Source of the DNA: a bacterium | GTDB taxonomy: Bacteria > Chloroflexota > Chloroflexia > Chloroflexales > Kallotenuaceae | DNA length: 33,298 bases | Assembly: GCA_016781505.1 (NCBI GenBank) | Contig: JADDQF010000035.1 | Span: forward strand, 39,638 to 72,935 | Reading direction: 5' to 3' | Shown: positions 7,094-25,882 of the stretch, one piece after another | Position numbering within the stretch: the first letter of the stretch is position 1 | Layout of the letters: each line of letters begins with the position of its first letter | Notes under the pieces: generated by a model | What the model saw: the letters and a program-made list of their open reading frames with translations, nothing else | What the model was told of the DNA's origin: nothing | Database searches by the model: none | Translations under genes and position numbers: made by a program

Positions 7094-7128
7094 AGCCCGC
7101 AAGCAGGGTGCTTGCGGGCTTTTGTTTT
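7094..7128 (+). terminator. Rho-independent terminator
   Basis: An 11-bp perfect GC-rich stem (7094-7104 with 7110-7120) has a 5-base loop and is followed by TTTTGTTTT. It ends the 82-residue gene transcript. Confidence 0.93.
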
Positions 7129-7368: not shown

Positions 7369-8355
7369 ATGATTCGCCGCCTCTTGAAGCTATCCAACCC
7401 GCGCCAGCTAGCCAGTCGTCGCCAACGACCGCTGCGGCAGCCACCGCTGCCACTTGACCAACGGGTTCATGCGATAACGCTGCGCAGTGCTGCACTTGGA
7501 ATCCGTAAGCGCTTTTACCTGTACACGCCGCCACATTACACCGCCACACAGCACCCACTACCAACACTGTATCTGTTTCGTGGTCACGAGCAGGAGTGGA
7601 TTAATCCGCAGCAGGATAGCCAGCGCAACAATCGGACGGTGGTGGATGTGTACGAGGAACTGCTGCGAGCTGGTGCCGTTGGACCAATGATCCTGGTGTT
7701 TCCCGGCATCAGCAGTGCGGATAACGGCGTGCCAGGGCTCCTGGTGAACTTCAAGCAGCCTGAGGTCCAGCCTAAGCCGGGCGTTGGCCGGGGCCGCTTC
7801 CAGGATTATTTTCTCCACGAGCTCGTGCCGTATGTCGATGCGCACTACCGCACCGATCCCGGTCGTCGGGGTACGGATGGCTTTTCCTTGGGCGGTTTTA
7901 TGGCCACCAAAATTGCCGCGCAGTATCCGGCGCTGTTTCGCACGGCCGGAGCCTACGACGGGTTATTCTTTTGGGATGATCCCACCGATGGCGCCACCAT
8001 CGCTGCGACCGATCTGACCTTTGCCAACCCCATCTTCGATCCAGCCTTTGGGGCAGGACCAGATCGTGATCGACGCTATGCGGCGGCCAACAATGCGCTG
8101 AACTTAGTGCGGAGGGCTGAGCCGGCACTTTTGCGAAAGGTGACCTGGCTGATCGAGTACGGGCCGGAATCAGGCGAGCCCCACGACTCCAACTTTTACC
8201 GAGGGCACAGGCTATGTAAGCTGCTTGCCAGCAAAGGTGTTCACAATCAAGGGCGGGGGGAATTGGCAAGCGGCTCCCATTCGTGGTGGTGGGCCGACGA
8301 ACATATGCGGCATGTGCTGCCGCTGCATTGGCAAGCATTATCAGCACAAAGGTAG
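7369..8355 (+). CDS. Alpha/beta-hydrolase esterase (esterase D family)
   Basis: A 328-residue putative serine esterase of the esterase D/enterochelin-esterase type. After a basic, Pro-rich N-terminus, Y-L-Y-T-P-P-H-Y and L-P-T-L-Y-L-F-R-G-H-E match the early strands. The nucleophile elbow G-F-S-L-G-G places Ser173, and S-G-S-H-S-W-W-W places the likely catalytic His304. The acid is probably one of the aspartates or glutamates near 260-275. No signal peptide is seen, though the first 30 residues are strongly basic. The ATG at 7369 has only a poor ribosome site and overlaps an upstream open frame by 4 bp, so translation may be coupled. Substrate unknown. A second, shorter member of the family lies at 9332, suggesting both belong to one hydrolase/ligase neighbourhood. 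Confidence 0.88.
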   Translation: MIRRLLKLSNPRQLASRRQRPLRQPPLPLDQRVHAITLRSAALGIRKRFYLYTPPHYTATQHPLPTLYLFRGHEQEWINPQQDSQRNNRTVVDVYEELLRAGAVGPMILVFPGISSADNGVPGLLVNFKQPEVQPKPGVGRGRFQDYFLHELVPYVDAHYRTDPGRRGTDGFSLGGFMATKIAAQYPALFRTAGAYDGLFFWDDPTDGATIAATDLTFANPIFDPAFGAGPDRDRRYAAANNALNLVRRAEPALLRKVTWLIEYGPESGEPHDSNFYRGHRLCKLLASKGVHNQGRGELASGSHSWWWADEHMRHVLPLHWQALSAQR

Positions 8356-8371
8356 CAGTTCCAGTACGCCG

Positions 8372-8380
8372 TGGTACAAT
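8372..8380 (+). promoter_or_regulatory. Extended -10 of C26 hydrolase gene
   Basis: TGG-TACAAT, identical to the HNH-gene element on the other strand, about 117 bp before the ATG. No good -35 is visible at 17 bp. It would place transcription start near 8387. Confidence 0.4.
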
Positions 8381-8496
8381 TAACAACCAATATTTCGCGA
8401 CATAGTGTTGTGTACGGTGGCACAAGCACCCCGGCCGAGCGCTTGCATGAGCAGACGTTTTGGTCGGGGAGTTGTTTTACCAAATAGGGTGAGCGC

Positions 8497-9231
8497 ATGA
8501 AAGCACTGATTGGCATTACCTGTGGCACATTTCGGGATCGGGATTGGTGTCCACCAATTCATGGCCACCGGCAAACGTATATCGATGCGGTAGTGAACGC
8601 CGGCGGCGCGCCGTTTTTGTTTCCGCTGATCGAGGATCAGGCTGTCCTCCGGGCGCTGTACGACCGGCTGGACGGTGTTTTGCTGGCAGGCGGCAACGAT
8701 GTCGATCCACAGCATTATGGCGAAGAGCCGCTACCGCAGCTGGGCAAGGTCGATGGGCAGCGGGATCGGGTTGAGCTGCAGCTGGCGCGCTGGGCTACCG
8801 CGGAAGGCAAGCCGGTGCTGGGGATTTGCCGCGGGATGCAGGTGCTGAATGTGGCGTTGGGCGGCTCATTGTATCAAGATATCGGCACGCAGCTGACCCA
8901 AGCGATCGTGCACGACAGCTCGTTCACCTGCGAGAACTGGGCGCATATGGCGCACGACCTGCACATCGAGCCCAACTCCAAGCTTGGCCGGCTGTTCGGC
9001 CCGAACGCATTTCCGACCAACTCGCTGCACCATCAGTCGCTCAAGTTGATCGCGCCGGGGCTGCAAGCCGTTGGCTGGGCGCCGGACGGCGTGGTGGAGC
9101 TGATCGAAGGCGACGACGAGCGCTTCATTATTGGGGTGCAATGCCACCCGGAGGCGCTGCAGGCCGAGGCGGATCCACGCTGGCGGGCGCTATTTGAAGC
9201 GTTTGTGGAAAGCTGCCGCGTCCATGTGTAG
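8497..9231 (+). CDS. Peptidase C26 / gamma-glutamyl hydrolase-like (PuuD family)
   Basis: A class I glutamine-amidotransferase-fold hydrolase of 244 residues, the usual length for gamma-glutamyl-GABA hydrolase (PuuD) and relatives. Visible signatures are G-V-L-L-A-G-G-N-D-V-D-P, the nucleophile elbow G-I-C-R-G-M-Q with Cys111, and G-V-Q-C-H-P-E with His217 and Glu219, which complete the catalytic triad. The family cleaves gamma-glutamyl amide bonds in the cytoplasm. No polyamine-pathway genes (puuA, puuB, puuC) are present. The GCS2-type and ATP-grasp ligases downstream suggest it may hydrolyse their product or an intermediate. The ATG at 8497 is preceded by AGGGTGAG. Confidence 0.92.
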   Translation: MKALIGITCGTFRDRDWCPPIHGHRQTYIDAVVNAGGAPFLFPLIEDQAVLRALYDRLDGVLLAGGNDVDPQHYGEEPLPQLGKVDGQRDRVELQLARWATAEGKPVLGICRGMQVLNVALGGSLYQDIGTQLTQAIVHDSSFTCENWAHMAHDLHIEPNSKLGRLFGPNAFPTNSLHHQSLKLIAPGLQAVGWAPDGVVELIEGDDERFIIGVQCHPEALQAEADPRWRALFEAFVESCRVHV

Positions 9232-9278
9232 CGCCGCGACGCAGGGCTGTAGGCGACACGGGTTGCGGGAGCGGTTTA

Positions 9279-9287
9279 TGCTACAAT
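9279..9287 (+). promoter_or_regulatory. Extended -10 of second esterase gene
   Basis: TGC-TACAAT lies 45 bp upstream of the esterase ATG. No -35 stands at 17 bp. A TTGCGG at 13 bp is too close to be used. Confidence 0.4.
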
Positions 9288-9331
9288 AACGCCGCCCGCA
9301 GCCATCCGACTGGCACATCAAAGGAGTTGCC

Positions 9332-10051
9332 ATGCACCGCAGTTACCACCGCTGGTTCAGCCCGGCGCTCGGCCGCGACATGGAGCTCCTGCTGTTCGGC
9401 CATGCCGGCGCGCCGGTCGTTGTGTTCCCAACCTCCCAGGGCCGCTTCTTCGAGTACGAGGATCGGGGCATGGTTGGCGCGCTCTCCGAGCATCTGGAGC
9501 AAGGCTGGATCCAGCTGATCTGCGTCGACAGCGTTGATAGCGAAAGCTTTTACTGCCGCTGGGCGCATCCCGGCGGCCGGATCTGGCGGCATGTTCAGTA
9601 CGAGAATTACCTCCTCGGCGAGGTCATCCCGGCGGTGCGTGGCCAGAACAGCAACTCCTTCTGGATGACCACCGGCTGCTCGTTTGGCGCCTACCATGCG
9701 GTCAACCTCGCCCTGAAACACCCCCACGTCATTCGCCGCACCATTGGCCTGAGCGGAGTTTACGACATCCGGCGCTTTCTGGATGGCTTCTACAACGATC
9801 ATGTGTACTTCAACAATCCGCTCGACTACACGGCGAATCTGCATGATCGCGGCCTGATCGACCGGCTGAAGCAGCAAGACATTATTCTGGCAACCGGGGA
9901 GGACGATCCCAATCGTTGGTCAAACGACCGGCTCTCGGCGCAGCTGTGGCGCGCCGACGTTGGCCACGCTTACCGCTTGTGGGATGGTTGGGCGCATGAT
10001 TGGCCATGGTGGCAGCAGATGATCCGCCACTACATCGGCGGGCACGACTGA
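9332..10051 (+). CDS. Esterase family protein (alpha/beta hydrolase)
   Basis: A 239-residue compact putative esterase. The elbow G-C-S-F-G-A-Y-H-A places Ser117. D-I-I-L-A-T-G-E-D-D provides the acid near Asp191, and G-W-A-H-D-W-P-W-W provides His222. The aromatic W-A-H-D-W-P-W motif after the histidine is typical of the short esterase-family proteins found beside ATP-grasp enzymes in Chloroflexota, Deinococcota and related genomes, as far as I recall the family. Cytoplasmic; no signal peptide. The ATG at 9332 has AAGGAG seven bases upstream. It is followed 53 bp later by the phosphodiesterase gene and probably heads the transcript that reaches the ligases. Confidence 0.88.
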   Translation: MHRSYHRWFSPALGRDMELLLFGHAGAPVVVFPTSQGRFFEYEDRGMVGALSEHLEQGWIQLICVDSVDSESFYCRWAHPGGRIWRHVQYENYLLGEVIPAVRGQNSNSFWMTTGCSFGAYHAVNLALKHPHVIRRTIGLSGVYDIRRFLDGFYNDHVYFNNPLDYTANLHDRGLIDRLKQQDIILATGEDDPNRWSNDRLSAQLWRADVGHAYRLWDGWAHDWPWWQQMIRHYIGGHD

Positions 10052-10104
10052 TGCTACTAACAACGTGATCAGCGCCGCTGGTCGCCTTTTTGCGAGGAGT
10101 AGCG

Positions 10105-10866
10105 ATGCGCAACGCATTTGGAGACCGGCCAGGACCCTACGTTATCGGCCATCGTGGCGCAGCGGGCTACGCGCCGGAAAACACGATGGTCTCGTTTGAG
10201 CGGGGGATTGCGCTGCGGGCCGACGCGATCGAGCTCGACATCCACCCGACGAGCGATGGCCAACTGGTGGTCATTCACGACCCCACGCTTGAGCGCACCA
10301 CCAACGGCCACGGCTTTGTCAGCACCCATTCGTTAGCCGAGATCCAAGCGCTTGATGCGGGCTCCTGGTTTGATCCATCGTTTCAAAATGTGCGCGTGCC
10401 GACGTTTCGTGAGGTGCTGGAGTGGGCCCGTGGCCGCACCAAGGTCGTGGTCGAGATCAAGCAAGGGCCGATCTTTTACCCGGCCATCGAAGAAATGATG
10501 ATTGCAGTGCTGGATCAGGCACAGATGCGCGGCGAGGTGCTCGTTATCTCGTTCGACCATCACAGCGTGCGCAAGGTCAAGCAGCTCGCGCCCGAGATTG
10601 CCACGGGCGTGCTGTATGCGGGCCGGGTTATCGATCCGGTTGGGCTAGCGCTGGCGGCGCAGGCCGATGCGCTGATGCCATATTGGCCGCTCCTGACCAA
10701 AGAGGAAGTGGCAGCGGCGCACGCAGCCGGCTTGTTGATCGGGCCGTGGGGTGGAGCCGAGCAGAATTACGAGTATATCCTGGCGACCGGCGTGGATGCC
10801 GTCTTGGCCGATTTTCCCGACCATCCACGGACCGTCATTGAGCAGCAGCAAGCTGCCGGCAGGTAG
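10105..10866 (+). CDS. Glycerophosphodiester phosphodiesterase
   Basis: A 253-residue GDPD-family TIM-barrel enzyme that splits glycerophosphodiesters into glycerol 3-phosphate and an alcohol. Catalytic features are visible: G-H-R-G (His16, Arg17), A-P-E-N-T (Glu25), E-L-D-I-H (Glu43, Asp45, metal ligands) and V-I-H-D-P (His58). The C-terminal V-D-A-V-L-A-D-F-P motif is also typical. It has no signal peptide, so it acts in the cytoplasm. The ATG at 10105 is preceded by GAGGAG at 5 bases; the open frame extends back to a TTG at 10090 that lies inside this ribosome site. The gene lies between an esterase and an ATP-grasp gene. Whether it shares a pathway with them or only supplies phosphate and glycerol is unclear. 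Confidence 0.93.
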   Translation: MRNAFGDRPGPYVIGHRGAAGYAPENTMVSFERGIALRADAIELDIHPTSDGQLVVIHDPTLERTTNGHGFVSTHSLAEIQALDAGSWFDPSFQNVRVPTFREVLEWARGRTKVVVEIKQGPIFYPAIEEMMIAVLDQAQMRGEVLVISFDHHSVRKVKQLAPEIATGVLYAGRVIDPVGLALAAQADALMPYWPLLTKEEVAAAHAAGLLIGPWGGAEQNYEYILATGVDAVLADFPDHPRTVIEQQQAAGR

Positions 10867-10938
10867 CCAGGGATCCATGAGCAACAGCCTGGCAAACAAC
10901 CTGCGTTTATGAAAAGCGACACAGAAGGAGGAGTTGCC

Positions 10939-12168
10939 TTGTCAGATACCAATGCGAAAAAAGTGGGCATCATTGTTGGTCGCGAGTGGTCGTGGCCACC
11001 GGCGATCATTGAAGAGATCAACGGGCGCAACGCGGGCGTTGTCGCGGAGTTTGCGAAGCTGGGCGGCACCAAGATGAACGAGCCCAACCCCTACGCCGTG
11101 ATTGTTGACCGCATCTCGCATGAAATTCCGTATTACCGGGCCTATCTCAAGAACGCCGTGCTGCAAGGTACCATCGTCGTCAACAACCCGTTCTGGTGGT
11201 CGGCCGACGACAAATACACGGGCGCCTCGATTGCCGACAAGCTGGGCATTCCGCATCCCAAGACGGTGGCACTACCTTCCCATTCGTATGTCGAGGGCGT
11301 GGTGGCGGAGTCGCTGCGCAACCTGCAGTACCCCCTTCCCTGGGAAGAGCATCTCCAGTATGTCGGCGGTTTTCCGGTTATTCTGAAGCCGGCGTGGGGT
11401 GGCGGCTTCAAAAAGGTGTACAAGCTCAACAGCTATGAGGAGCTGTTCCGGGCGTACAACGAAACCGGCACCGAATGCATGATGCTGCAGCAGTACATCG
11501 AGTGGGAAAAGTACGCGCGCTGTGTCTGCATCGGCCAGACCGAGATCATGACGATCAAGTTTGACGCGAACGCTCCATGGCCGCATCGCTACTTTGTGGA
11601 TCACGATTTCCTGACGCCAGACGAAGGGCGGCAGGTAACGGAAGGCGCGCTGAAGCTCAACCAAGCGCTGGGCTATGACATGAACACGGTGGAGTTCGCG
11701 ATCAAGGATGGCGTGGCCTACGCGATTGACTTTACCAACCCGGCGCCCGACTTCGACGTCGTCTCGCTGACCGAGCATTATTTTCCGTGGGTCGTCACCA
11801 AAATGGCCGACCTGTTGATCGATCTGGCGCTGGGCAAGCGCCAACAGGAGCGTATCCCGTACCGCTGGGATTATTTACTGCAAGCGGGCACGCGGCCGAT
11901 CGAGGCACAAGGCAGTGGGGCAGCCGCGGAAGCGACGAGCGGTGCGGCCAGCACAGGCACAACGACGCGCAGCCGTGCGCGGAAAGGGGCAACGGCCGAG
12001 GCAAGCCCGAGCGCAACCGAGGTGACGCCGGCGACCAAAACCAGGGCCCGAGGAGCAGCAGGCGCTGCGGAAAACAAACCGGCACGTGCTTCGCGTTCGC
12101 GCAAAGGGCAGCAGGCTGAAGCTGCGGCGGGCGACCAACTCGACGACTTGGATCAAGTAGCAGGATAA
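10939..12168 (+). CDS. ATP-grasp ligase with basic repetitive tail
   Basis: A 409-residue ATP-dependent carboxylate-amine ligase. The core (residues 5-310) shows the ATP-grasp order: V-I-L-K-P-A-W-G-G-G with Lys150 and the glycine loop, hinge M-M-L-Q-Q-Y-I-E-W-E (182-190), and metal-binding V-E-F...A-I-D-F-T-N-P (Glu252, Asp264, Asn267). The last 95 residues are low complexity (Ala, Thr, Arg, Lys) with three basic patches: R-S-R-A-R-K-G, K-T-R-A-R-G and S-R-S-R-K-G. The start is probably TTG at 10939, seven bases after GGAGG; the ATG at 10909 lacks a ribosome site. Substrates are unknown. It is the first of three ligases in a row. A 50-codon ORF begins 3 bp after its stop. Confidence 0.9.
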   Translation: MSDTNAKKVGIIVGREWSWPPAIIEEINGRNAGVVAEFAKLGGTKMNEPNPYAVIVDRISHEIPYYRAYLKNAVLQGTIVVNNPFWWSADDKYTGASIADKLGIPHPKTVALPSHSYVEGVVAESLRNLQYPLPWEEHLQYVGGFPVILKPAWGGGFKKVYKLNSYEELFRAYNETGTECMMLQQYIEWEKYARCVCIGQTEIMTIKFDANAPWPHRYFVDHDFLTPDEGRQVTEGALKLNQALGYDMNTVEFAIKDGVAYAIDFTNPAPDFDVVSLTEHYFPWVVTKMADLLIDLALGKRQQERIPYRWDYLLQAGTRPIEAQGSGAAAEATSGAASTGTTTRSRARKGATAEASPSATEVTPATKTRARGAAGAAENKPARASRSRKGQQAEAAAGDQLDDLDQVAG

Positions 12169-12171
12169 GGC

Positions 12172-12324
12172 ATGCAGCGCCGCGTGGACCAGACTGCATG
12201 GATGCAGCAAAGGGTGGAGCCGGAAATCACGCTGCAAGTAGCGACAATGCCCAACGCGTCACCGATGTGTTTTTGGCAGCTACAGCATCCGAGGATGACT
12301 AGCGCTCGTTCGACCCGCAGTTAA
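12172..12324 (+). CDS. Possible 50-residue peptide between two ligases
   Basis: The ORF starts M-Q-R-R-V-D-Q-T-A-W and ends S-A-R-S-T-R-S. Its ATG is 3 bp after the ATP-grasp stop, with AGGA six bases upstream inside the end of that gene, a classic coupling arrangement. About 34 of 50 third codon positions are G or C, close to what I see in the neighbouring genes. It has six Met, two Trp and one Cys, few acidic residues and no membrane segment. It resembles no precursor family I know. It could be a ligase substrate peptide or an accidental open frame in the 188-bp gap between the ligases. Confidence 0.35.
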   Translation: MQRRVDQTAWMQQRVEPEITLQVATMPNASPMCFWQLQHPRMTSARSTRS

Positions 12325-12356
12325 CGCATCACCGCTGCGCCAGCGAAAGGAGCTTC

Positions 12357-13724
12357 ATGGAGCTATCCGCCGCAATCAACTATTACCACAGCTTGTTGAA
12401 CGACGACTCCGCACGCGAAAATCAGGCCGTGCTTGCTGCAGGGCAGCGCCGGGAAGGGCTATTCTTTGGCGAACGGCCGCTGGCAACTGTGCTGCGGCCG
12501 CGCCTGCTGACGGGCGAACAATATGAGCACCTACGTCAGGTCAGCAAGCTGGTGGCAGGGGCATCGCGACAAGCGCGCGCCTTTGCCCTCACCGACACGA
12601 GAACCCGTGAGCTGATGGGCTTCACGCCGCTGGAGGAGGCGCTGCTGGAGATCGACCCGGGCTACACCGAGCCAAGCGCATCGTCGCGACTGGACTCCTT
12701 CTTTGACAACCAGACCGGCTCGCTCCAATTCGTGGAATACAATGCCGAAAGTCCAGCGGCGATCGCCTACGAGGATGTGCTGTCCGAAGTCTTTTTGGAG
12801 CTGCCGGTGGTCCAGGAGTTTGGCCGCCGCTACACGGTGAAGCCTATTCCCGCACGCCAGCGCATGTTTCAGGCGCTGCTGGATGCGTTTCGCGAGTGGG
12901 GCCGGGCGGACGAGCCCCACGTAGCGATCGTCGATTGGAAAGGGCTGCCGACGCATTCAGAGTTTGTCTTGTTTGAGCGCTACTTCAACGAGCAGCAGCT
13001 GGACACGCTGATCTGCTCACCCGAAGAGCTGGAATATCGTGATCGCACGCTGTATGCGCGGGGCAAGCCGATCAACCTGGTGTACCGCCGTCTGCTGACC
13101 AGTGAATTTTTGGGCCGCTATGGCGCGGCCGCGCTCGATCATCCGCTGGTCCAGGCGTGTAAAGACGGGACGGTCTGTCTGGTCAACAGCTTTCGCACCA
13201 AGCCGCTGTACAAAAAGATGATCTTCGGCCTGCTGAGCGACCCCCAGATCATGGACAGCGCCGGTATTGCCCGCGACACCCAAACGAGGCTGGCCAAGCA
13301 TATTCCGTGGACGCGGCGGGTGCAGCGCGGCACAACGACCTATCAAGAACAGGTGATCGAGCTGCTGCCGTTTATGATCGAGCAACAGGAACGACTTCTG
13401 CTCAAGCCGAACGACGAGTACGGCGGCAAAGGCATCACGATTGGGTGGGAAACCAGCCCGGATGATTGGCGGCGCGCATGTGAGGCGGCGCTCAACGATC
13501 CGTTCGTGGTGCAGGAGCGCGTGCATATCGCCTATGAAGACTATCCCGCCTACCGTGACGGCCGGCTCGAAATTGGGCGACGGCTGGTCGATACCGACCC
13601 GTATTTGTTCGGCACACATGTCGAGGGCTGCTTGACGCGCCTTTCGACGGTCACACTGTTGAATGTAACGGCAGGCGGGGGCTCCACAGTACCAACCTTG
13701 TTGATTGAGCCGTCGGGCGCGTGA
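12357..13724 (+). CDS. Circularly permuted ATP-grasp ligase
   Basis: A 455-residue ATP-grasp enzyme in which the metal-binding motif precedes the nucleotide-binding lysine. F-V-E-Y-N-A-E-S-P (Glu127, Asn129) lies before L-L-L-K-P-N-D-E-Y-G-G-K-G (Lys350 and glycine loop) and the hinge V-V-Q-E-R-V (386-388). That order is the hallmark of circularly permuted ATP-grasp proteins; the E-Y-N-A-E-S-P block also recalls glutathionylspermidine synthase-type enzymes. Such proteins form amide bonds from an acyl phosphate. The C-terminus ends with a Gly/Ser-rich beta segment. The ATG at 12357 has AGGAG at 4 bases. The gene's last 20 bp overlap only an unused upstream extension of the next gene; the true gap is 37 bp. 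Substrates are unknown. Confidence 0.88.
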   Translation: MELSAAINYYHSLLNDDSARENQAVLAAGQRREGLFFGERPLATVLRPRLLTGEQYEHLRQVSKLVAGASRQARAFALTDTRTRELMGFTPLEEALLEIDPGYTEPSASSRLDSFFDNQTGSLQFVEYNAESPAAIAYEDVLSEVFLELPVVQEFGRRYTVKPIPARQRMFQALLDAFREWGRADEPHVAIVDWKGLPTHSEFVLFERYFNEQQLDTLICSPEELEYRDRTLYARGKPINLVYRRLLTSEFLGRYGAAALDHPLVQACKDGTVCLVNSFRTKPLYKKMIFGLLSDPQIMDSAGIARDTQTRLAKHIPWTRRVQRGTTTYQEQVIELLPFMIEQQERLLLKPNDEYGGKGITIGWETSPDDWRRACEAALNDPFVVQERVHIAYEDYPAYRDGRLEIGRRLVDTDPYLFGTHVEGCLTRLSTVTLLNVTAGGGSTVPTLLIEPSGA

Positions 13725-13761
13725 TACCGGCTCCGCCCCGCGGCAAGCAAGCGAGGACACG

Positions 13762-14922
13762 ATGAACTATTTTGATCCGTATAGCCCAGATTTTCCATTT
13801 ACGATGGGCATCGAAGAGGAATATCAGATCATCGACCCGGAGACGCGCGAGCTGCGCTCGTATATCACCCAGATTTTGGAGCAAGGCCGGCTGGAGTTAC
13901 ACGAGCAGCTCAAGCCGGAGATGATGCAGTCGGTTGTCGAGGTGGGCACGCATGTGTGCCGCACGGCGGAAGAAGCGCGGGCGGAAATTACGCGGCTGCG
14001 GGGCGCTATCGCGGGTCTGGCGGCAAAACAGGGCCTGGTGATTGCGGCGGCGGGGACGCATCCGTTCTCATCGTGGGAAACCCAAGAGATCTATCCCCAC
14101 GAGCGCTACTACGGCGTCGTCAACGAGATGCAAGACGCGGCGCGGCAGCTGCTGATCTTCGGCATGCATGTGCATGTGGGCATGCCCGATCTGGAGCTAG
14201 GTGTGCAAATTCAGAACGTGGCCCGTTACTTCTTGCCGCATCTGCTCTGCCTTTCAACCAGCTCGCCATTTTGGATGGGTCGGCAAACAGGCTATAAGTC
14301 GTATCGCTCCCTGGTCTTCGGCAACTTTCCACGCACGGGTATTCCGAGCCAGTTCAGCTCGCTCAACGAATTCCAAAGCTACACGGATCTGCTGGTTAAG
14401 ACGGGCTCGATCGACAATGGCAAGAAGATTTGGTGGGATATTCGGCCCCACCCGGTATTTGGCACGATCGAAGTCCGCATCTGCGACCTGTGCACGAAAG
14501 TGGACGAAACCATTGCGATTGCCGCGCTCATCCAGGCAATTTTTGTCAAAATCTATAAGCTCTTTACCTGCAACATGACGTTCCGGGTGTATCGTCGCGC
14601 GCTGATCAATGAGAATAAATGGCGGGCGATGCGCTATGGCCTCAACGGCGAGCTGATCGACTTCGGCAAGCAGCAGTCGATGGCGGCGCGGGACCTGCTG
14701 GTGGAGCTGGTGGAGTTTGTGGACGATGTGGTCGACGATCTCGGCTCGCGCCAGGCCGTGGAGTATGTGCATCGGATGTTGGAAGAGGGCACCAGCGCGG
14801 ATCGCCAGCTGGCCACGTATGCCAGCACCGGTGACCTCAAGGCCGTGGTGGATCAGCTGGTTCGGGAAACGGTCGAAGGCGTGCCAATCGAGGGCGTTAG
14901 CATCCGCACAGCCACAGCGTAG
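13762..14922 (+). CDS. Carboxylate-amine ligase, GCS2/YbdK family
   Basis: A 386-residue member of the glutamate-cysteine ligase type 2 fold. The N-terminus carries T-M-G-I-E-E-E-Y (Glu18-20, metal and ATP binding). Residues 134-140 are G-M-H-V-H-V-G, and G-T-I-E-V-R-I-C-D supplies the family Glu and Arg. Length matches YbdK (about 370-380). Family members join an amino acid to an amine using ATP; YbdK itself has weak gamma-glutamylcysteine synthetase activity in vitro, and the physiological substrates are mostly unknown. The ATG at 13762 follows GAGGACACG; the open frame runs back to 13705 through the previous gene. It is last in the plus-strand ligase series and ends at a hairpin. Confidence 0.92.
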   Translation: MNYFDPYSPDFPFTMGIEEEYQIIDPETRELRSYITQILEQGRLELHEQLKPEMMQSVVEVGTHVCRTAEEARAEITRLRGAIAGLAAKQGLVIAAAGTHPFSSWETQEIYPHERYYGVVNEMQDAARQLLIFGMHVHVGMPDLELGVQIQNVARYFLPHLLCLSTSSPFWMGRQTGYKSYRSLVFGNFPRTGIPSQFSSLNEFQSYTDLLVKTGSIDNGKKIWWDIRPHPVFGTIEVRICDLCTKVDETIAIAALIQAIFVKIYKLFTCNMTFRVYRRALINENKWRAMRYGLNGELIDFGKQQSMAARDLLVELVEFVDDVVDDLGSRQAVEYVHRMLEEGTSADRQLATYASTGDLKAVVDQLVRETVEGVPIEGVSIRTATA

Positions 14923-14925
14923 GGC

Positions 14926-14959
14926 AGTGTCGGGGCGCGCTGCATCACGCCCCGACACT
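14926..14959. terminator. Hairpin between convergent genes
   Basis: A 12-bp perfect stem (14926-14937 with 14948-14959) has a 10-base loop, starting 4 bp after the GCS2-family stop. No T run follows. The convergent S9 peptidase gene ends 92 bp further on. Confidence 0.6.
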
Positions 14960-15050
14960 CCAATCGACACACGCACGTCCCGCAGCAGCACACCTAGACT
15001 CGCTGCGTGCCAGACGAGCTCATCCTAGGGCAGAGCTGGATGACAGGAAG

Positions 15051-17042
15051 CTAGGGCTTCAGATAGCGCGTGAACCAATCCAGAATATGGTGCATCCGGT
15101 TAACGCGGCGCTGCGGCTGGCCCGAGCGTGGCATCTCGTGGCCTTCGTCGGGGAAGCGCACGAACTTGGTCGGAACGCCTAGCTCAACCAGCGCGGTGTA
15201 GAGCTGCTCGGCCTGCTCGATCGGGCAGCGATGGTCGTTTTCCTGGTGCAAGATCAGCGTCGGCGTTTTGACCTGCTGCACATAGCGAAGCGGCGACTTG
15301 GACATCAGCAGCTCTTCGTCGGTCCAGGGCAGGCCGCCATACTCATCGCGGCTAAACTCCGGCCCGATATCGCTCGTACCGGCAAACGAGAGCAGATTGC
15401 AGATCGAGCGCTGGGTGCAGGCAGCGGCGAAGCGATCCGTATGGGTGATCGCCCAGTTGGTCATAAAGCCGCCGTATGAGCCGCCCATAATGCCCATCCG
15501 TGCCGCATCGACCCACGCCCAGCCCGCGGCGACATCGGCCGCGTGCAGAATATCCGCATAATCCTTCTCGCCGAAATGCTGCCGCACGGCGGCGGCAAAC
15601 TGCTGGCCATACGAGGCCGAGCCGCGCGGATTGGTATAAAAGAGGCCAAAGCCAGCCGCGGCCAGAACCTGAAACTCATGGAAAAAGGCGTTGCCATAGG
15701 CGAGATGCGGCCCGCCGTGCACATACAAAATCAAGGGGTGTTGCCCGTCATCGGCTGCAGCAGGGCGAATAAACCAGCCTTCGATCTCCCAATCATCAGC
15801 GCCCTTGAAGCGGATATGTTCGGGCGGCAGAATTTGATAGGTGCTGAAAAAGGCGTCACCTGCTTTGGAGCGACGGGCGAGCTGATGCCCACTGGTGGCA
15901 GTGTAGACTTCGGCGGAGCGTGTGTTGGTCTCACCAGCAAAGGCTAGAGTCGCGCCCTGCTGTGAAAAGCCGACGACCGACAGGCCGGACGTGTTAAGCT
16001 GCTCAATGTCACCGCCCTCGGCGCTTACCCGATACAGGCCGGTGCGGCCTTGTACCATCGCGGCAAATGTGATGCGGGATTGGTTATCCCAGGCCGGCCG
16101 GAGGGGCGTCGAGCTCAGATGGGTGTCGCTCGTCGGCATGCCCCCGACATGGCCGTCAAAGCTGGGGGTCAAACAGTGCGTGGCGCCATCGGCAAGCTTA
16201 ATCTGCCACAGCTTTTGAGTCGTCGCGGCGCCCTGTTCGCGTGCATGACCGACATAGGCCAATGCTGCACCATCGGGACTCCAAGCATAGTTGTAGATCG
16301 AGGCAACCCCGCCTGTTAGCTGCCGGAGCCCTTCGCCGCCAGCGCTGACCACAAAAATATCGGAGACCCACGAGGTCTCGGGGGTCTCCTCGTTCTGGCT
16401 CAAAAACGCGATGTGGTGACCATCCGGACTCCAACGGGGAGTGCGCACTTCACGCTCACGCGTGGTCAGCCGCACACAGTCCGAGCCGTCACGCCCAACG
16501 CGGTAAAGCTGCGCCCGCCGCTCATCATAAAATCCCACGTTATCGTACTTGATCGGCAGCCGTCCTGCGTACACCTTTTCGTCGTGTAGTTCGGCGTGCC
16601 GCTGCGCAGCCTGGTCTTTATGCCCCAAGGACGTGAAGCAAAAAAGCTGGCCGGAAGGATGCCAATCATACTCAGCCACGCCCTCAGACAACTCGTCCGT
16701 CTTGGTTATCTGCTCGGCTTCCCCACCTGCAAGCCGGAGCACAAACAGCTGGGGCTTGTCGCCGTCGCGGGTCGAGATAAAGGCGAGCTCCTGCCCATTG
16801 GGCGACCAGCGTGGCGCCGAGTCGCTGCCGACGGAGCTAAACGTCAGGCGGCGTGGCGCTGCGTCTGGACCGGAACTAAGGTAGATCGCCGAGCGATACG
16901 CCGGCCGCCGCTTGCCATCTTTTTCGATCTCTTCGATCCAACGTTCCACATAGGCTACGGCTTGACCATCCGGCGCCAGCTGGGGATCTGCGACCAAGCG
17001 CAGCTCAAACAACGACTCAGGCGTGCAATGTTGTTCGGCCAC
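15051..17042 (-). CDS. S9 family peptidase (acylaminoacyl/prolyl oligopeptidase-like)
   Basis: A 663-residue two-domain serine peptidase. Residues 1-400 form a beta-propeller made of TolB/PD40-like repeats (R-W-S-P-N-G-Q-E-L-A-F, R-W-S-P-D-G-H-H-I-A-F, A-W-S-P-D-G-A-A-L-A-Y), which restricts access to small peptides. The C-terminal alpha/beta-hydrolase has G-G-S-Y-G-G (Ser522), L-H-Q-E-N-D-H-R (Asp603) and D-E-G-H-E-M (His635). Such enzymes remove acylated amino acids or cut short peptides in the cytoplasm; no signal peptide is present. The start is GTG 17042, five bases after a run of GAGGAGGAG. It lies 56 bp downstream of the O-antigen-ligase-like gene and faces the ligase cluster, whose product it might process. 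Confidence 0.95.
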   Translation of the reverse strand: MAEQHCTPESLFELRLVADPQLAPDGQAVAYVERWIEEIEKDGKRRPAYRSAIYLSSGPDAAPRRLTFSSVGSDSAPRWSPNGQELAFISTRDGDKPQLFVLRLAGGEAEQITKTDELSEGVAEYDWHPSGQLFCFTSLGHKDQAAQRHAELHDEKVYAGRLPIKYDNVGFYDERRAQLYRVGRDGSDCVRLTTREREVRTPRWSPDGHHIAFLSQNEETPETSWVSDIFVVSAGGEGLRQLTGGVASIYNYAWSPDGAALAYVGHAREQGAATTQKLWQIKLADGATHCLTPSFDGHVGGMPTSDTHLSSTPLRPAWDNQSRITFAAMVQGRTGLYRVSAEGGDIEQLNTSGLSVVGFSQQGATLAFAGETNTRSAEVYTATSGHQLARRSKAGDAFFSTYQILPPEHIRFKGADDWEIEGWFIRPAAADDGQHPLILYVHGGPHLAYGNAFFHEFQVLAAAGFGLFYTNPRGSASYGQQFAAAVRQHFGEKDYADILHAADVAAGWAWVDAARMGIMGGSYGGFMTNWAITHTDRFAAACTQRSICNLLSFAGTSDIGPEFSRDEYGGLPWTDEELLMSKSPLRYVQQVKTPTLILHQENDHRCPIEQAEQLYTALVELGVPTKFVRFPDEGHEMPRSGQPQRRVNRMHHILDWFTRYLKP

Positions 17043-22378: not shown

Positions 22379-23530
22379 ATGATTGATGAGGTACAGCCGT
22401 GGATGGAACGAGCGCTGCAACTCGCGGAGCGCGCACGTGGCCGAACATCGCCGAATCCGCCTGTGGGGGCGGTGGTTGTGCAAGGCAGCACGGTTATCGG
22501 CGAGGGCTGGACCCAACCAGCCGGCGGATGGCACGCCGAAATTGTCGCGCTGGAGCAAGCGGGCAGCGCAGCGCAGGGCGCGCAGCTCTTTGTCACGCTT
22601 GAGCCCTGCACCTTTTGGGGGCGTACCCCACCCTGCACGAACAGCATTATCAGGGCAGGCGTGCGGCAGGTGTTCTTCGCTGCACGCGATCCGGACCGTC
22701 GCATCGGCGCAGGCGCCCAAGCCGTGCTTGACGCTGCCGGCATCGCCACCACGCAACTGCAAGGGTACACCGCTCGCGCCGAAGAACAGATCGCGGCCTT
22801 CCACTGTTGGACACAGCAGCACCGGCCGCTGGTTATCGCCAAGTATGCAATGACATTGGATGGCAAGATCGCGACCTGGACCAGAGATAGCCGCTGGGTA
22901 AGCGGTCCCGCCGCCCGCCGGCTCGTGCATCAACTGCGGGACGAAGTTGACGCGATTTTGGTTGGGGTAGGCACGGTGGTGGCGGACGATCCCGCGTTGA
23001 CGACGCGCCTGGACGCTGCCTGGTGGCGCGATGTTCAGCATCCTATCCGGGTCATTGTCGATAGTCACGGCCGCACGCCCTTATCGGCCAAGGTGCTTGA
23101 TCCCGGCTTGCCGGGGCAGACGATTATCGCAACGGTGGATGCTGCGGGCGAATGGCAAGCCGAGGTTGAGCACCGCGGCGCCGAAGTGCTGAGGCTGCCG
23201 CCCGATACCGACGGACGCGTCGACCTGCATGCCCTGCTGCGCGAGCTAGGGCAGCGCAACCTTACCAGCCTGCTGGTTGAAGGCGGCGCGCAAATTCTGG
23301 GCCGGTTTGCAGCCGAGCAGGTCATCGACCGGATCTGGGCCTTTGTCGCGCCCAAGCTGATCGGAGGGGCGATCGCTCCTAGCCCAATGGGCCATCCCGG
23401 CGTAGCGCTGATGAACGACGCGCAGGCCTGGCGTTTCGTACGCCACGAGGTGGTTGGGGACGATCTGTTGATCATCGCGGAGCCGGCCAGCACGAGCACG
23501 CCCACCGGAGAAGCAAAAAGTAGCGAGTAG
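22379..23530 (+). CDS. ribD: Bifunctional riboflavin deaminase/reductase RibD
   Basis: Carries out the second and third steps of the riboflavin pyrimidine branch: deamination of diaminohydroxyphosphoribosylaminopyrimidine, then NADPH reduction of the ribosyl side chain. Length is 383 residues, normal for the fusion. The deaminase domain (1-145) has the zinc site W-H-A-E (His52, Glu54) and P-C-T-F-W-G-R-T-P-P-C (Cys77, Cys86). The reductase domain (about 150-375) starts at Y-A-M-T-L-D-G-K-I-A-T and includes V-E-G-G-A-Q-I-L-G-R-F. The ATG at 22379 has AGGGTGAGCG upstream. First gene of the riboswitch-controlled operon; ribE follows after 23 bp. Confidence 0.97.
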   Translation: MIDEVQPWMERALQLAERARGRTSPNPPVGAVVVQGSTVIGEGWTQPAGGWHAEIVALEQAGSAAQGAQLFVTLEPCTFWGRTPPCTNSIIRAGVRQVFFAARDPDRRIGAGAQAVLDAAGIATTQLQGYTARAEEQIAAFHCWTQQHRPLVIAKYAMTLDGKIATWTRDSRWVSGPAARRLVHQLRDEVDAILVGVGTVVADDPALTTRLDAAWWRDVQHPIRVIVDSHGRTPLSAKVLDPGLPGQTIIATVDAAGEWQAEVEHRGAEVLRLPPDTDGRVDLHALLRELGQRNLTSLLVEGGAQILGRFAAEQVIDRIWAFVAPKLIGGAIAPSPMGHPGVALMNDAQAWRFVRHEVVGDDLLIIAEPASTSTPTGEAKSSE

Positions 23531-23553
23531 TCGGATAAGGAGTAGGCCGCATT

Positions 23554-24174
23554 ATGTTTACGGGAATCGTTGAAGAGATAGGCACCATCCAGGCAACCTC
23601 GATCGACGCCGAGCTAGGCAAAGAGCTTACTATCGGCTGCGCCACGGTTGTGCAAGACGCGAAGCTTGGAGACAGTATCGCGGTCAACGGCATTTGCCTA
23701 ACGGTTATTGGTTTCGATCAAAGCAGTTTCACGATTGGTGTCAGCCCCGAGACCCTGCGCCGGACAAATCTTGGTTCCTTGCAGGTTGGCGATCCGGTCA
23801 ATCTGGAGCGGTCGCTAGCCTTCGGCGGACGGCTCGGCGGCCACTACGTCCAAGGCCATGTGGACGGCACGGGCGAGATCGTACGCATCGATCCCGAAGG
23901 CGACTCTTTGCGGGTAACGGTGCGACCGCCGGCGCGACTGCTGCCGTACATTGTCGAAAAAGGCTACGTAGCAGTTGACGGCACCAGCCTCACCATTGCA
24001 GAGCGTACGAGTGACGCGTTTACCATTGCCTTGATCGCTTATACCCAGGGCGCAGTGATCATGGGCCGGCAACAGGTTGGCGCCGTTGTCAATTTGGAAG
24101 TCGACATTATGGCCAAGTACGTCGAATCCATCACGACGTACCAGTTATCGAAGCTGCAATCCGCAGAGCGCTAG
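23554..24174 (+). CDS. ribE: Riboflavin synthase alpha chain
   Basis: Dismutates two molecules of 6,7-dimethyl-8-ribityllumazine to riboflavin and the pyrimidine precursor. The 206-residue protein has the family start M-F-T-G-I-V-E-E-I-G and two similar lumazine-binding halves (about 1-95 and 96-190). The first half has S-I-A-V-N-G-I-C-L-T-V; the second has G-G-H-Y-V-Q-G-H-V-D-G and the parallel V-A-V-D-G-T-S-L-T-I. It works as a trimer in the cytoplasm. AAGGAG lies 11 bases before the ATG, a rather long spacing. Order in the operon is the same as in Bacillus (ribD-ribE-ribBA-ribH). Confidence 0.97.
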   Translation: MFTGIVEEIGTIQATSIDAELGKELTIGCATVVQDAKLGDSIAVNGICLTVIGFDQSSFTIGVSPETLRRTNLGSLQVGDPVNLERSLAFGGRLGGHYVQGHVDGTGEIVRIDPEGDSLRVTVRPPARLLPYIVEKGYVAVDGTSLTIAERTSDAFTIALIAYTQGAVIMGRQQVGAVVNLEVDIMAKYVESITTYQLSKLQSAER

Positions 24175-24212
24175 CAAGCCTTAGCGAGTGTTAGCAGGGA
24201 AGGGAGCCAGGT

Positions 24213-25424
24213 ATGCCGTTAGCAATTGTTGAAGAAGCGCTGCGCGATTACGCCGCAGGTAAATGTATCATCATTGTCGATGATGAAGACCGCGAAAACG
24301 AGGGTGATCTCGCCTGTGCGGCACAATACGTTACGCCGGAACATATTGCGTTTATGGCGCGTGAGGGTCGCGGGCTTATTTGCCTGGCGATCCAGGGCAA
24401 GCGGCTGGATGAATTAGAGATTCCGCTGATGGTCGGCAGTAATACGTCACGCTTTGGCACAAACTTCACCATCTCAATTGAAGCGGCGCAGGGTGTAACA
24501 ACCGGGATTTCGGCGGCAGACCGGGCGCACACGATCCGGACTGTGCTTGATCCGGCCACAACACCTGCCGATATTGCCCGACCAGGACACATTTTTCCAC
24601 TGCGGGCAGCTGACGGCGGCGTGCTGCAGCGCGCCGGCCAGACCGAAGCCGCAGTGGACATGGCGCGCTTAGCCAACCTGTATCCCGCGGGCGTTATCTG
24701 CGAGATCATGAACGACGACGGAACGATGGCCCGGCTGCCGCAGCTTGAGCGCTTTGCCGCACGCCACGGCTTAAAGATTGTCAGCGTAGCACAGCTGATT
24801 GCGTATCGCCGCACCCGTGAAACGCTGGTCCGGGCGGTGGGCAAAGCGCTGCTGCCGACGACCTTCGGCACATTTCAGGCGATCAGCTACGAAAGCTCGC
24901 ACGATCCCAGCGAAAGTGTGGCGCTCGTGATGGGCGATGTCAATGGTGGGCCACCTCCGTTGGTACGCGTCCACTCCGAATGCTTGACCGGCGATGTATT
25001 CGGCAGCCTCCGCTGTGATTGCGGGCCGCAGCTGCACCGAGCGCTGGAGCGGATCGCGGCGGAAGGACGCGGCGTGCTGCTGTATCTCCGTCAGGAAGGC
25101 CGGGGGATTGGCCTGCACAACAAGCTGCGCGCCTATGCGCTGCAAGAGCAAGGACTTGACACCGTCGAGGCCAATATCCAGCTTGGATTTCCGGCCGACC
25201 TCCGCGACTATGGCATCGGCGCGCAAATCCTGTTTGATCTCGGCATTCGCCAACTCCGATTGTTGACCAACAATCCGAAGAAGATCCATGGCCTGCGCGG
25301 CTACGGCCTTGAAATCGTCGAACAGCTACCGCTGCTCATCGAGCCGTCGGCGCATAATCAGCAGTACCTCGACACCAAACGCGACAAAATGGGACATATG
25401 TTGGAGGCAAGGGAATGCGCGTAA
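24213..25424 (+). CDS. ribBA: Bifunctional DHBP synthase/GTP cyclohydrolase II
   Basis: Supplies both precursors of lumazine: 3,4-dihydroxy-2-butanone 4-phosphate from ribulose 5-phosphate (N-terminal half), and the pyrimidine from GTP (C-terminal half). The 403-residue length is typical of the fusion. Residues 23-33, [11 protein letters not shown], form the acidic active-site loop of DHBP synthase. The cyclohydrolase part has [17 protein letters not shown] with zinc ligands Cys257, Cys268 and Cys270, and [10 protein letters not shown]. All key residues of both halves are present. The end overlaps the ribH start by 10 bp. Confidence 0.97.
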
Positions 25425-25882
25425 TTCAAGGCGATTTTGTGGGGAGTGGATTGCGGATCGGCATCGTCGTCAGCCGTTGGAACGAGTTTATCACGAAACA
25501 GCTGCTGTTGGGCGCGCTGGATGGCTTACGCCGTCATGGAGTGAACAAAGCCGATATCACCGTGGTGTATGTGCCGGGTTCGTTTGAAGTGCCGCTTGCT
25601 TGCCGCAAGTTGGCGGAGCAGGGCAGGGTCGATGCAGTGATTGCGCTGGGCGCAGTGATTCGCGGCTCGACGGCGCACTTCGACTATGTGGCGGGCGCTG
25701 CGGCAAATGGTGTCGCTCAGGTGGGAATGCAGACGGGCGTACCGTGTGTTTTCGGCGTCATCACCACCGACACCATCGAGCAGGCGATCGAGCGGGCCGG
25801 AACGAAGGCCGGCAACAAAGGCTTTGACGCCGCCGCGACAGCGATTGAAATGGCCCGCGTGGTGAAGGCGATCGGTGAATGA
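25415..25882 (+). CDS. ribH: Lumazine synthase
   Basis: Condenses the ribitylaminouracil with dihydroxybutanone phosphate to give 6,7-dimethyl-8-ribityllumazine. The 155-residue length is standard. Motifs: V-S-R-W-N-E-F-I-T (substrate loop), V-P-G-S-F-E-V-P, and [14 protein letters not shown] with catalytic His88. It probably assembles as a pentamer or 60-mer shell. The ATG at 25415 sits within the end of ribBA, with GGAGG 9 bases upstream, and its own TGA overlaps the phosphatase ATG (ATGA), so translation of the last three genes is likely coupled. Confidence 0.97.

Follow-up and report, generated by a model that had tools for sequence, protein, structure and literature searches.

A stretch of 33,298 nucleotides from a Chloroflexota genome of the family Kallotenuaceae (assembly GCA_016781505.1, contig JADDQF010000035.1, positions 39,638 to 72,935; hereafter the window) encodes three carboxylate-amine ligases consecutively on one strand. 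The question raised by this arrangement is whether three such enzymes serve one pathway or are neighbors by chance. The ligases are a canonical ATP-grasp enzyme (ATPg), a circularly permuted ATP-grasp enzyme (CPg), and a YbdK-type enzyme (GCS2), and a small esterase-type hydrolase (EstB) is encoded ahead of them. On balance, the occurrence and linkage of these genes in two phyla favor a single pathway in which EstB, ATPg, CPg, and GCS2 build a small non-ribosomal peptide or amide, probably a gamma-glutamyl one, by means of stand-alone ATP-dependent ligases.

Co-occurrence and Linkage in the Class

The four genes were surveyed in 120 genomes of the class of the window with one profile per gene, and presence was scored at 100 bits or more. 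ATPg is carried by 49 genomes, EstB by 44, GCS2 by 43, and CPg by 39. All four genes are found together in 36 of the 120 genomes and none of them in 66. EstB never appears without ATPg (44 of 44 carriers). A single gene is present in only 10 genomes (ATPg in 5, GCS2 in 4, and CPg in 1), and other mixtures account for 8. Four genera of the order of the window (g2, g9, g13, and g18, sampled with 1, 7, 1, and 1 genomes, respectively, 10 in total) lack all four genes, with weak matches below 25 bits in two of these genera, and other genera of the same families carry all four. The complete set is also present in G040, which we take to be Chloroflexus aurantiacus J-10-fl; G048 is presumably Roseiflexus sp. 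RS-1.

Of the 38 class genomes with both ATPg and CPg, 33 have the two genes no more than 4 kb apart; the corresponding counts are 16 of 44 for ATPg with EstB and 14 of 39 for ATPg with GCS2. A single cluster of all four genes is found in 7 of the 49 ATPg carriers. Genes that coincide even where they are unlinked provide the stronger indication of a common function. The linkage counts were made without the ATPg fragment of G095 (131 bits) and ATPg matches below 25 bits, and without CPg matches below 60 bits and GCS2 rows below 100 bits, both of which include the fragments beside ATPg in G080 and G094. Also left out were six GCS2 rows of 117-332 bits from G013, G024, and G027, where ATPg is absent, together with ten second copies of EstB (319-337 bits), the EstB fragments of G095 and G106, and weaker EstB matches. 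None of the ten second EstB copies is on the contig of ATPg except that of G048, which is about 0.6 Mb away. The CPg and GCS2 fragments beside ATPg in G080 (contig C135) and G094 (contig C353) are accompanied by an intact CPg elsewhere, as in a decaying cluster or a broken assembly. MFS-family genes adjoin EstB at L064:7668-8435 and L072:8980-10095, and EstB is outside the four-gene cluster in both of these class genomes.

Loci containing CPg (numbered with the prefix L) were collected by scanning genome contigs with six CPg peptide patterns. This provided 45 loci, and the record titles name Chloroflexota groups for 40 of these. Of the 45, 42 contain ATPg. The others are L018 and L032, in which the contig ends no more than about 720 bases from CPg, and L044, in which no ATPg is found in the 1.7 kb upstream. 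Many of the loci are short, and the counts for the remaining partners are lower bounds: at least 16 for EstB and at least 15 for GCS2.

Variant Clusters in a Second Phylum

The survey was extended to a second phylum (199 genomes), to which the Luteitalea record that supplied locus L045 belongs (G120; Acidobacteriota by record name). The threshold for ATPg was 100 bits; for EstB, GCS2, and CPg the search was run at an E value of 1e-20, and CPg enters the patterns at 300 bits or more. ATPg is present in 59 genomes, EstB in 58, and both in 56. GCS2 appears in 64 genomes, 20 of which have none of the other three genes, and CPg is matched in 38, with 300 bits or more in 30. The patterns found are all four genes in 24 genomes, ATPg with EstB and GCS2 in 18, and none in 117. 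In 43 of the 59 ATPg carriers, at least one of the other three genes is no more than 4 kb from ATPg, and in 23 at least two of them are. The ATPg fragment of G305 (110 bits), ATPg matches below 40 bits, the EstB fragment of G176 (88 bits), GCS2 rows of 309 bits or less, and CPg rows of 214 bits or less were left out of this linkage count.

The gene orders in the second phylum include EstB-ATPg-GCS2-M29 peptidase (L092), ATPg-CPg-GCS2 (L088), and GCS2-ATPg-CPg-M29 beside EstB and a third ATP-grasp gene (L045). Simple inheritance of a neighborhood is a poor explanation for genes that are repeatedly re-linked in different orders. Several of the 20 stretches from this phylum contain ATPg without the other three genes nearby (for example, L094, L098, L099, L101, and L102); in L102, EstB was located beside ATPg by profile search, though the gene caller had missed it. 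Gene calling in the loci relied on a codon-usage script whose training set was the core genes, and the lists of neighbors may be incomplete for that reason; another caller picked antisense frames in places. The original prediction had assigned a shared function to the three ligases and the esterase and had named independence of the ligases in relatives as the finding that would speak against it. The shared function is supported by the joint presence or joint absence of the four genes in the class and by their re-linkage in the second phylum, and independence was on the whole not borne out, although single genes do stand alone in the 10 class genomes given above.

A different assortment is found, wholly or partly, in Anaerolineae and related Chloroflexota (L034 and L037-L043, with Pfam annotation for L040 only). 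These loci encode another ATP-grasp enzyme, a subtilase, EstB, ATPg, CPg, and an adenylosuccinate-lyase-type enzyme.

Three further arrangements were observed. Proteins that resemble class I glutamine amidotransferases by eye, with no Pfam match, are encoded in L097 and L107 (Acidobacteriota). At L097:9039-15662, ATPg and CPg are followed by the amidotransferase-like protein, a peptide ligase of the PGM1_C type (PF18105), and what is by eye probably a transporter; this may be a larger peptide cluster. Three consecutive genes of Selenomonas plasmid pSRC2 (L054:2915-7257) encode a GCS2-family protein, a MATE efflux protein, and a distant relative of CPg; they may represent a ligase pathway that includes an exporter. 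The protein encoded at 13073-14311 of L092 was suspected by eye to be a divergent circularly permuted ATP-grasp enzyme. This was not confirmed: no Pfam match was obtained, the profile E value is 0.0013 against only 11 sequences, and no solved relative was found below an E value of 0.1.

Families and Folds of the Four Proteins

Three amide ligases of distinct folds in succession had been predicted, and this was confirmed by families and structural models. GCS2 exceeds the NCBIfam PRK13515 cut-off of 371 bits with a score of 554 bits and is a member of the YbdK type (PRK13515/TIGR02050). Residues G16, E18, E19, and E20 are invariant in 13 sequences and correspond to the GhExE signature of YbdK-type ligases, as quoted in the available text of PMC2588565. 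The GCS2 profile matches the YbdK structure 1r8g with an E value of 1.6e-59.

No Pfam match was obtained for ATPg at a threshold of 0.001. The score of 29.7 bits with the RimK-family model TIGR00768 is far below the cut-off of 143.4 bits and does not place ATPg among the RimK alpha-L-glutamate ligases. An AlphaFold2 model of its first 358 residues (predicted local distance difference test score, pLDDT, of 78) has a canonical ATP-grasp fold and matches RimK (top; 7qys and 5zct), D-Ala-D-Ala ligase, the graspetide ligases MdnC and PsnB, and LysX/ArgX. The best E value against the PDB is 2.4e-12, and the template modeling scores are about 0.5-0.58 by query length. ATPg is conserved across 25 aligned sequences and contains a motif similar to DF[TM]NPAPD. 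Its tail of about 90 residues (11890-12165) is rich in Ala, Thr, Arg, and Lys. The C-termini of its relatives vary: most have little or no tail, and others have a basic tail or a helix-hairpin-helix domain. A GIGP motif appears in the tail of three relatives; the HHH_5 domain (PF14520) was confirmed in L025 and L029 and is assigned by motif only in L033. A role in defense was considered and rejected: among eight proteins compared with PADLOC at 0.01, only ATPg provided a match (E value of 0.0087), and this covers residues 297-403, mostly the low-complexity tail.

The Pfam matches of CPg are weak (28 bits for CP_ATPgrasp_2 with a cut-off of 32, and 23.1 bits for CP_ATPgrasp_1 with a cut-off of 23.1). 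Its structural model (pLDDT of 92) has the three-domain circularly permuted ATP-grasp fold across the entire protein and matches human glutathione synthetase (GSS) with a Foldseek E value of 1.8e-18. In the structure comparison, YgiC and YjfC rank first with Z values of 30.6-31.4 (31.4 for YgiC), accompanied by human and yeast GSS at 29.0-29.8 (29.8 for yeast), homoglutathione synthetase at 28.8-29.4, GspS at 27.9-28.9, and fungal Cp1B at 27.9. These values lie within about 3.5 units, so the fold of CPg gives its superfamily and not its substrate. Sequence support for the same relationships is weak, with E values of 1.4e-10 for 3n6x, 0.021 for YjfC, and 0.039 for Cp1B. Residues R111, D113, E127, N129, K350, and R428 are invariant in 29 CPg sequences and may correspond to catalytic residues of GSS and GspS. 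The locus had been described as devoid of a glutathione synthetase; this statement stands for the GshB type only, because the model of CPg has the eukaryotic GSS fold, which it shares with homoglutathione synthetase, YgiC/YjfC, and GspS. A CPg paralogue is encoded at L069:5944-10489 of a Roseiflexus-like genome, between anthranilate-synthase-type genes and a trpD-like gene.

S117 and H222 of EstB are invariant in 17 sequences, and D192 is present in at least 90% of them. To judge from this conservation, the three residues are a candidate catalytic triad. An ATP-grasp gene is located directly upstream of EstB in L052 and L053.

Proposed Pathway

The substrates, the order of steps, and the product proposed here are what we infer from the observed families, folds, motifs, coincidence, and linkage. 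According to the available text of Burroughs et al., linked peptide ligases often act successively in small-peptide pathways (PMC4431377). GCS2 would activate a carboxylate (the gamma-carboxylate of glutamate in its relatives) and join it to an amine. The gamma-glutamyl intermediate could then be extended or capped with an amino acid or a polyamine by CPg. ATPg, as a RimK/Ddl-type ligase, would form the bond common to all carriers, and EstB may act on the substrate or product of ATPg as a serine hydrolase or acyltransferase in deblocking, transacylation, or recycling. In the window, the gamma-glutamyl-hydrolase-like enzyme (C26) would probably hydrolyze gamma-glutamyl bonds for turnover.

The predicted unit of three ligases does co-occur, but its firmest pair is ATPg with EstB. 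These two look like a core around which GCS2, CPg, other ligases, and amide hydrolases vary. GCS2 or CPg is sometimes missing, and in some Chloroflexota another ATP-grasp enzyme and a subtilase replace GCS2; the products therefore probably differ between lineages. The small gamma-glutamyl peptide or amide of the original prediction is still the simplest proposed product. One pathway would join four uncharacterized genes of two phyla, whose carriers include the cultured Herpetosiphon and, presumably, Chloroflexus. A small gamma-glutamyl peptide or amide would be a metabolite from lineages with little known chemistry.

Several observations weigh against a single pathway of these four genes. ATPg is the only one of them in 5 of its 49 carriers in the class, and 11 of the 59 ATPg carriers of the second phylum have only ATPg and EstB. 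No match to GCS2 was found in G123 and G124, two Chloroflexota of the subtilase variant in which the other genes are present, or in the rumen genome G122, whose completeness is not given. Given its absence from these three genomes and from the 11 carriers of the second phylum, GCS2 cannot set a universal first step. EstB relatives are also found beside an AXE1 esterase in Rhizobium (L051) and without an annotated ligase neighbor in Thiodictyon (L050), which rules out EstB as a partner of ATP-grasp enzymes everywhere. Transporters were met in single loci only (MFS in L064 and L072, MATE in L054), and no exporter recurs. The Fisher values for co-occurrence in the class, about 1e-17 or lower, ignore relatedness and are thus overstated.

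Alternative Explanations

The set could make the gamma-glutamyl thiol of Chloroflexota, that is, the novel low-molecular-weight thiol reported from Chloroflexus aurantiacus, and we consider this unlikely. By analogy, GCS2 would be the ligase for gamma-glutamylcysteine or a related dipeptide, CPg would add a third residue or an amine in the manner of GSS or GspS, and ATPg would serve for a further modification as a third ligase; EstB would hydrolyze S-acyl adducts as S-formylglutathione hydrolase does, and C26 would recycle the product. The GSS fold of CPg with GCS2 as a partner is what a gamma-glutamyl thiol pathway would need. The bacillithiol pathway was rejected for the class as sampled: BshC is unmatched in all 120 class genomes, the source genome included, and positive in 3 of 14 controls (B. 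subtilis, Thermus, and Deinobacterium), which also favors another thiol. The available text of Newton and Rawat (2019) reports the absence of glutathione and the presence of novel thiols in anaerobes that include Chloroflexus aurantiacus; those of Chlorobium and Allochromatium were identified later, and no identification of the Chloroflexus thiol is met in that text (PMC6336425). Hiras (2018), in the portion available, finds gshAB among complete genomes only in Cyanobacteria, Proteobacteria, Eukarya, and one actinobacterium (PMC6282198). Both reports are consistent with a thiol product, but the available text of the latter does not mention "chloroflex", and the absence of glutathione is taken from this published distribution, with no search for gshA and gshB in the carriers. 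A thiol pathway is further disfavored by the lack of GCS2 in many carriers of ATPg and EstB and by the bacillithiol pathway of some Acidobacteria, a phylum that also carries the set (available text of PMC6282198 and PMC12719100). No thiol-dependent enzyme was noticed among the neighbors scanned. A Chloroflexus thiol made by these enzymes would settle a question apparently open since the early thiol surveys of phototrophs.

The tails of ATPg relatives bear on a role in protein or ribosome modification, in which ATPg would add residues to a protein, CPg and GCS2 would produce the tag or cap it, and its removal would fall to EstB or peptidases. RimK is at the top of the closest solved folds of ATPg, several relatives have basic tails, and three have the GIGP motif with two confirmed HHH_5 domains; but most relatives have little or no tail, the RimK-family score is far under its cut-off, and the Ddl, LysX/ArgX, and MdnC folds fit about equally well. 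Such a role appears improbable. Ligation of a peptide to a polyamine is also to be given a low probability. CPg would join a gamma-glutamyl peptide to spermidine or another polyamine, and C26-type enzymes would act as amidases. YgiC and YjfC, which come first by structure (Z of 31) with GspS close, are peptide-spermidine ligases according to the title of Pederick (2023) as cited in the available text of PMC12568646; the narrow spread of Z values among YgiC, GSS, and GspS does not discriminate between these functions, however, and no polyamine gene was noticed among the neighbors scanned. That the three ligases belong to separate pathways and are adjacent by chance would fit the genomes in which GCS2 or ATPg is found alone, but the strong coincidence of the genes and their repeated re-linkage in two phyla make it highly improbable. 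A single pathway with ATPg and EstB at its core is the reading that we prefer.

Layout of the Locus

The coordinates of the genes are presented in Table 1. EstA, C26, EstB, GDPD, ATPg, CPg, and GCS2 form a run on the plus strand at 7369-14922 with intergenic gaps of 37-188 bases. By consensus scans, a terminator-like hairpin is located at 7094-7120, upstream of the run, and a weaker one at 10065-10085, between EstB and GDPD.

Table 1. Genes of the ligase locus and its surroundings (window coordinates)
Gene	Description	Position	Strand	Evidence
EstB	Small serine esterase-type hydrolase, core partner of ATPg	9332..10051	+	PF00756, 29.6 bits (cut-off 22)
ATPg	Canonical ATP-grasp ligase, RimK/D-Ala-D-Ala-ligase type	10909..12168	+	TIGR00768, 29.7 bits (below cut-off); model of first 358 residues
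CPg	Circularly permuted ATP-grasp ligase, YgiC/YjfC-eukaryotic GSS-GspS fold	12357..13724	+	Model, pLDDT 92; structure matches
GCS2	YbdK-type carboxylate-amine (gamma-glutamyl) ligase	13762..14922	+	PF04107, 208 bits; PRK13515, 554 bits
C26	Gamma-glutamyl-hydrolase-like enzyme, local accessory	8497..9231	+	PF07722, 207 bits
GDPD	Phosphodiesterase encoded between EstB and ATPg; non-conserved local accessory	10090..10866	+	PF03009, 144 bits
EstA	Second PF00756 esterase, upstream; unit membership unsupported	7369..8355	+	PF00756, 61 bits
S9	Prolyl-oligopeptidase-type peptidase, convergent, outside conserved unit	15051..17042	-	PF00326, 170 bits

The placement of C26 and the small esterase ahead of the ligases on the same strand, with the S9 peptidase facing them, is as predicted. 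The genes listed earlier were correct, but GDPD and EstA had been omitted. The ATG of GCS2 at 13762 was correctly assigned, and the frame of ATPg opens at 10909 rather than at 10939. The earlier inclusion of C26 and S9 in the set is not supported. Among the 45 CPg loci, many of them short, C26 is present in at least 2 and was located in L004 and L036 only, GDPD and EstA in L004 only, and S9 next to GCS2 in L004 and L005 only. C26, GDPD, EstA, and S9 were rejected as core genes because they rarely travel with the ligases. C26 is retained as an accessory because it recurs in L036, where its gene ends directly upstream of subtilase-EstB-ATPg-CPg. The GICRGMQ and CHPE motifs of C26 are intact, as read by eye. 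Contig 43 of the source genome contains DNA (L002 and L003) with 68-73% identity to two portions of the C26 gene, likely a C26 paralogue. The window also contains an ordinary riboflavin operon at 22379-25882 (ribD, ribE, ribBA, and ribH types).

Comparison with Known Systems

The four-gene set is not described in the literature matches listed, as far as their available text extends; the amidoligase survey of Iyer et al. (2009) was outside this scope, and an earlier description is possible. That survey reportedly covers amidoligase neighborhoods, including a tagging system of CP-ATP-grasp, alpha-E, and transglutaminase proteins. No alpha-E, transglutaminase, or NTN-hydrolase was found among the neighbors scanned with Pfam, and many neighbors are outside that scan.

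The PRK13515 score, the GhExE signature, and the match to the YbdK structure are common to GCS2 and the YbdK/GCS2 carboxylate-amine ligases. What sets GCS2 apart is its association with ATPg, CPg, and EstB, both in occurrence and in gene linkage. ATPg has the fold of the RimK, LysX, and D-Ala-D-Ala ligases and differs from them in its DF[TM]NPAPD-like motif, the tail of some members, the EstB partner, and a RimK score below the cut-off. The model of CPg aligns over its full length with eukaryotic GSS, homoglutathione synthetase, GspS, YgiC/YjfC, and Cp1B, but the sequence identity in these comparisons is only 12-16%, and CPg has no room for the amidase domain of GspS. At the level of the whole set, the closest likeness is to the amidoligase neighborhoods of Iyer et al. 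(2009) and to the stand-alone-ligase pathways of the E-64 and dapdiamide types (PMC12568646); in such pathways, several different ligases are encoded per cluster and amide bonds are formed successively (PMC4431377).

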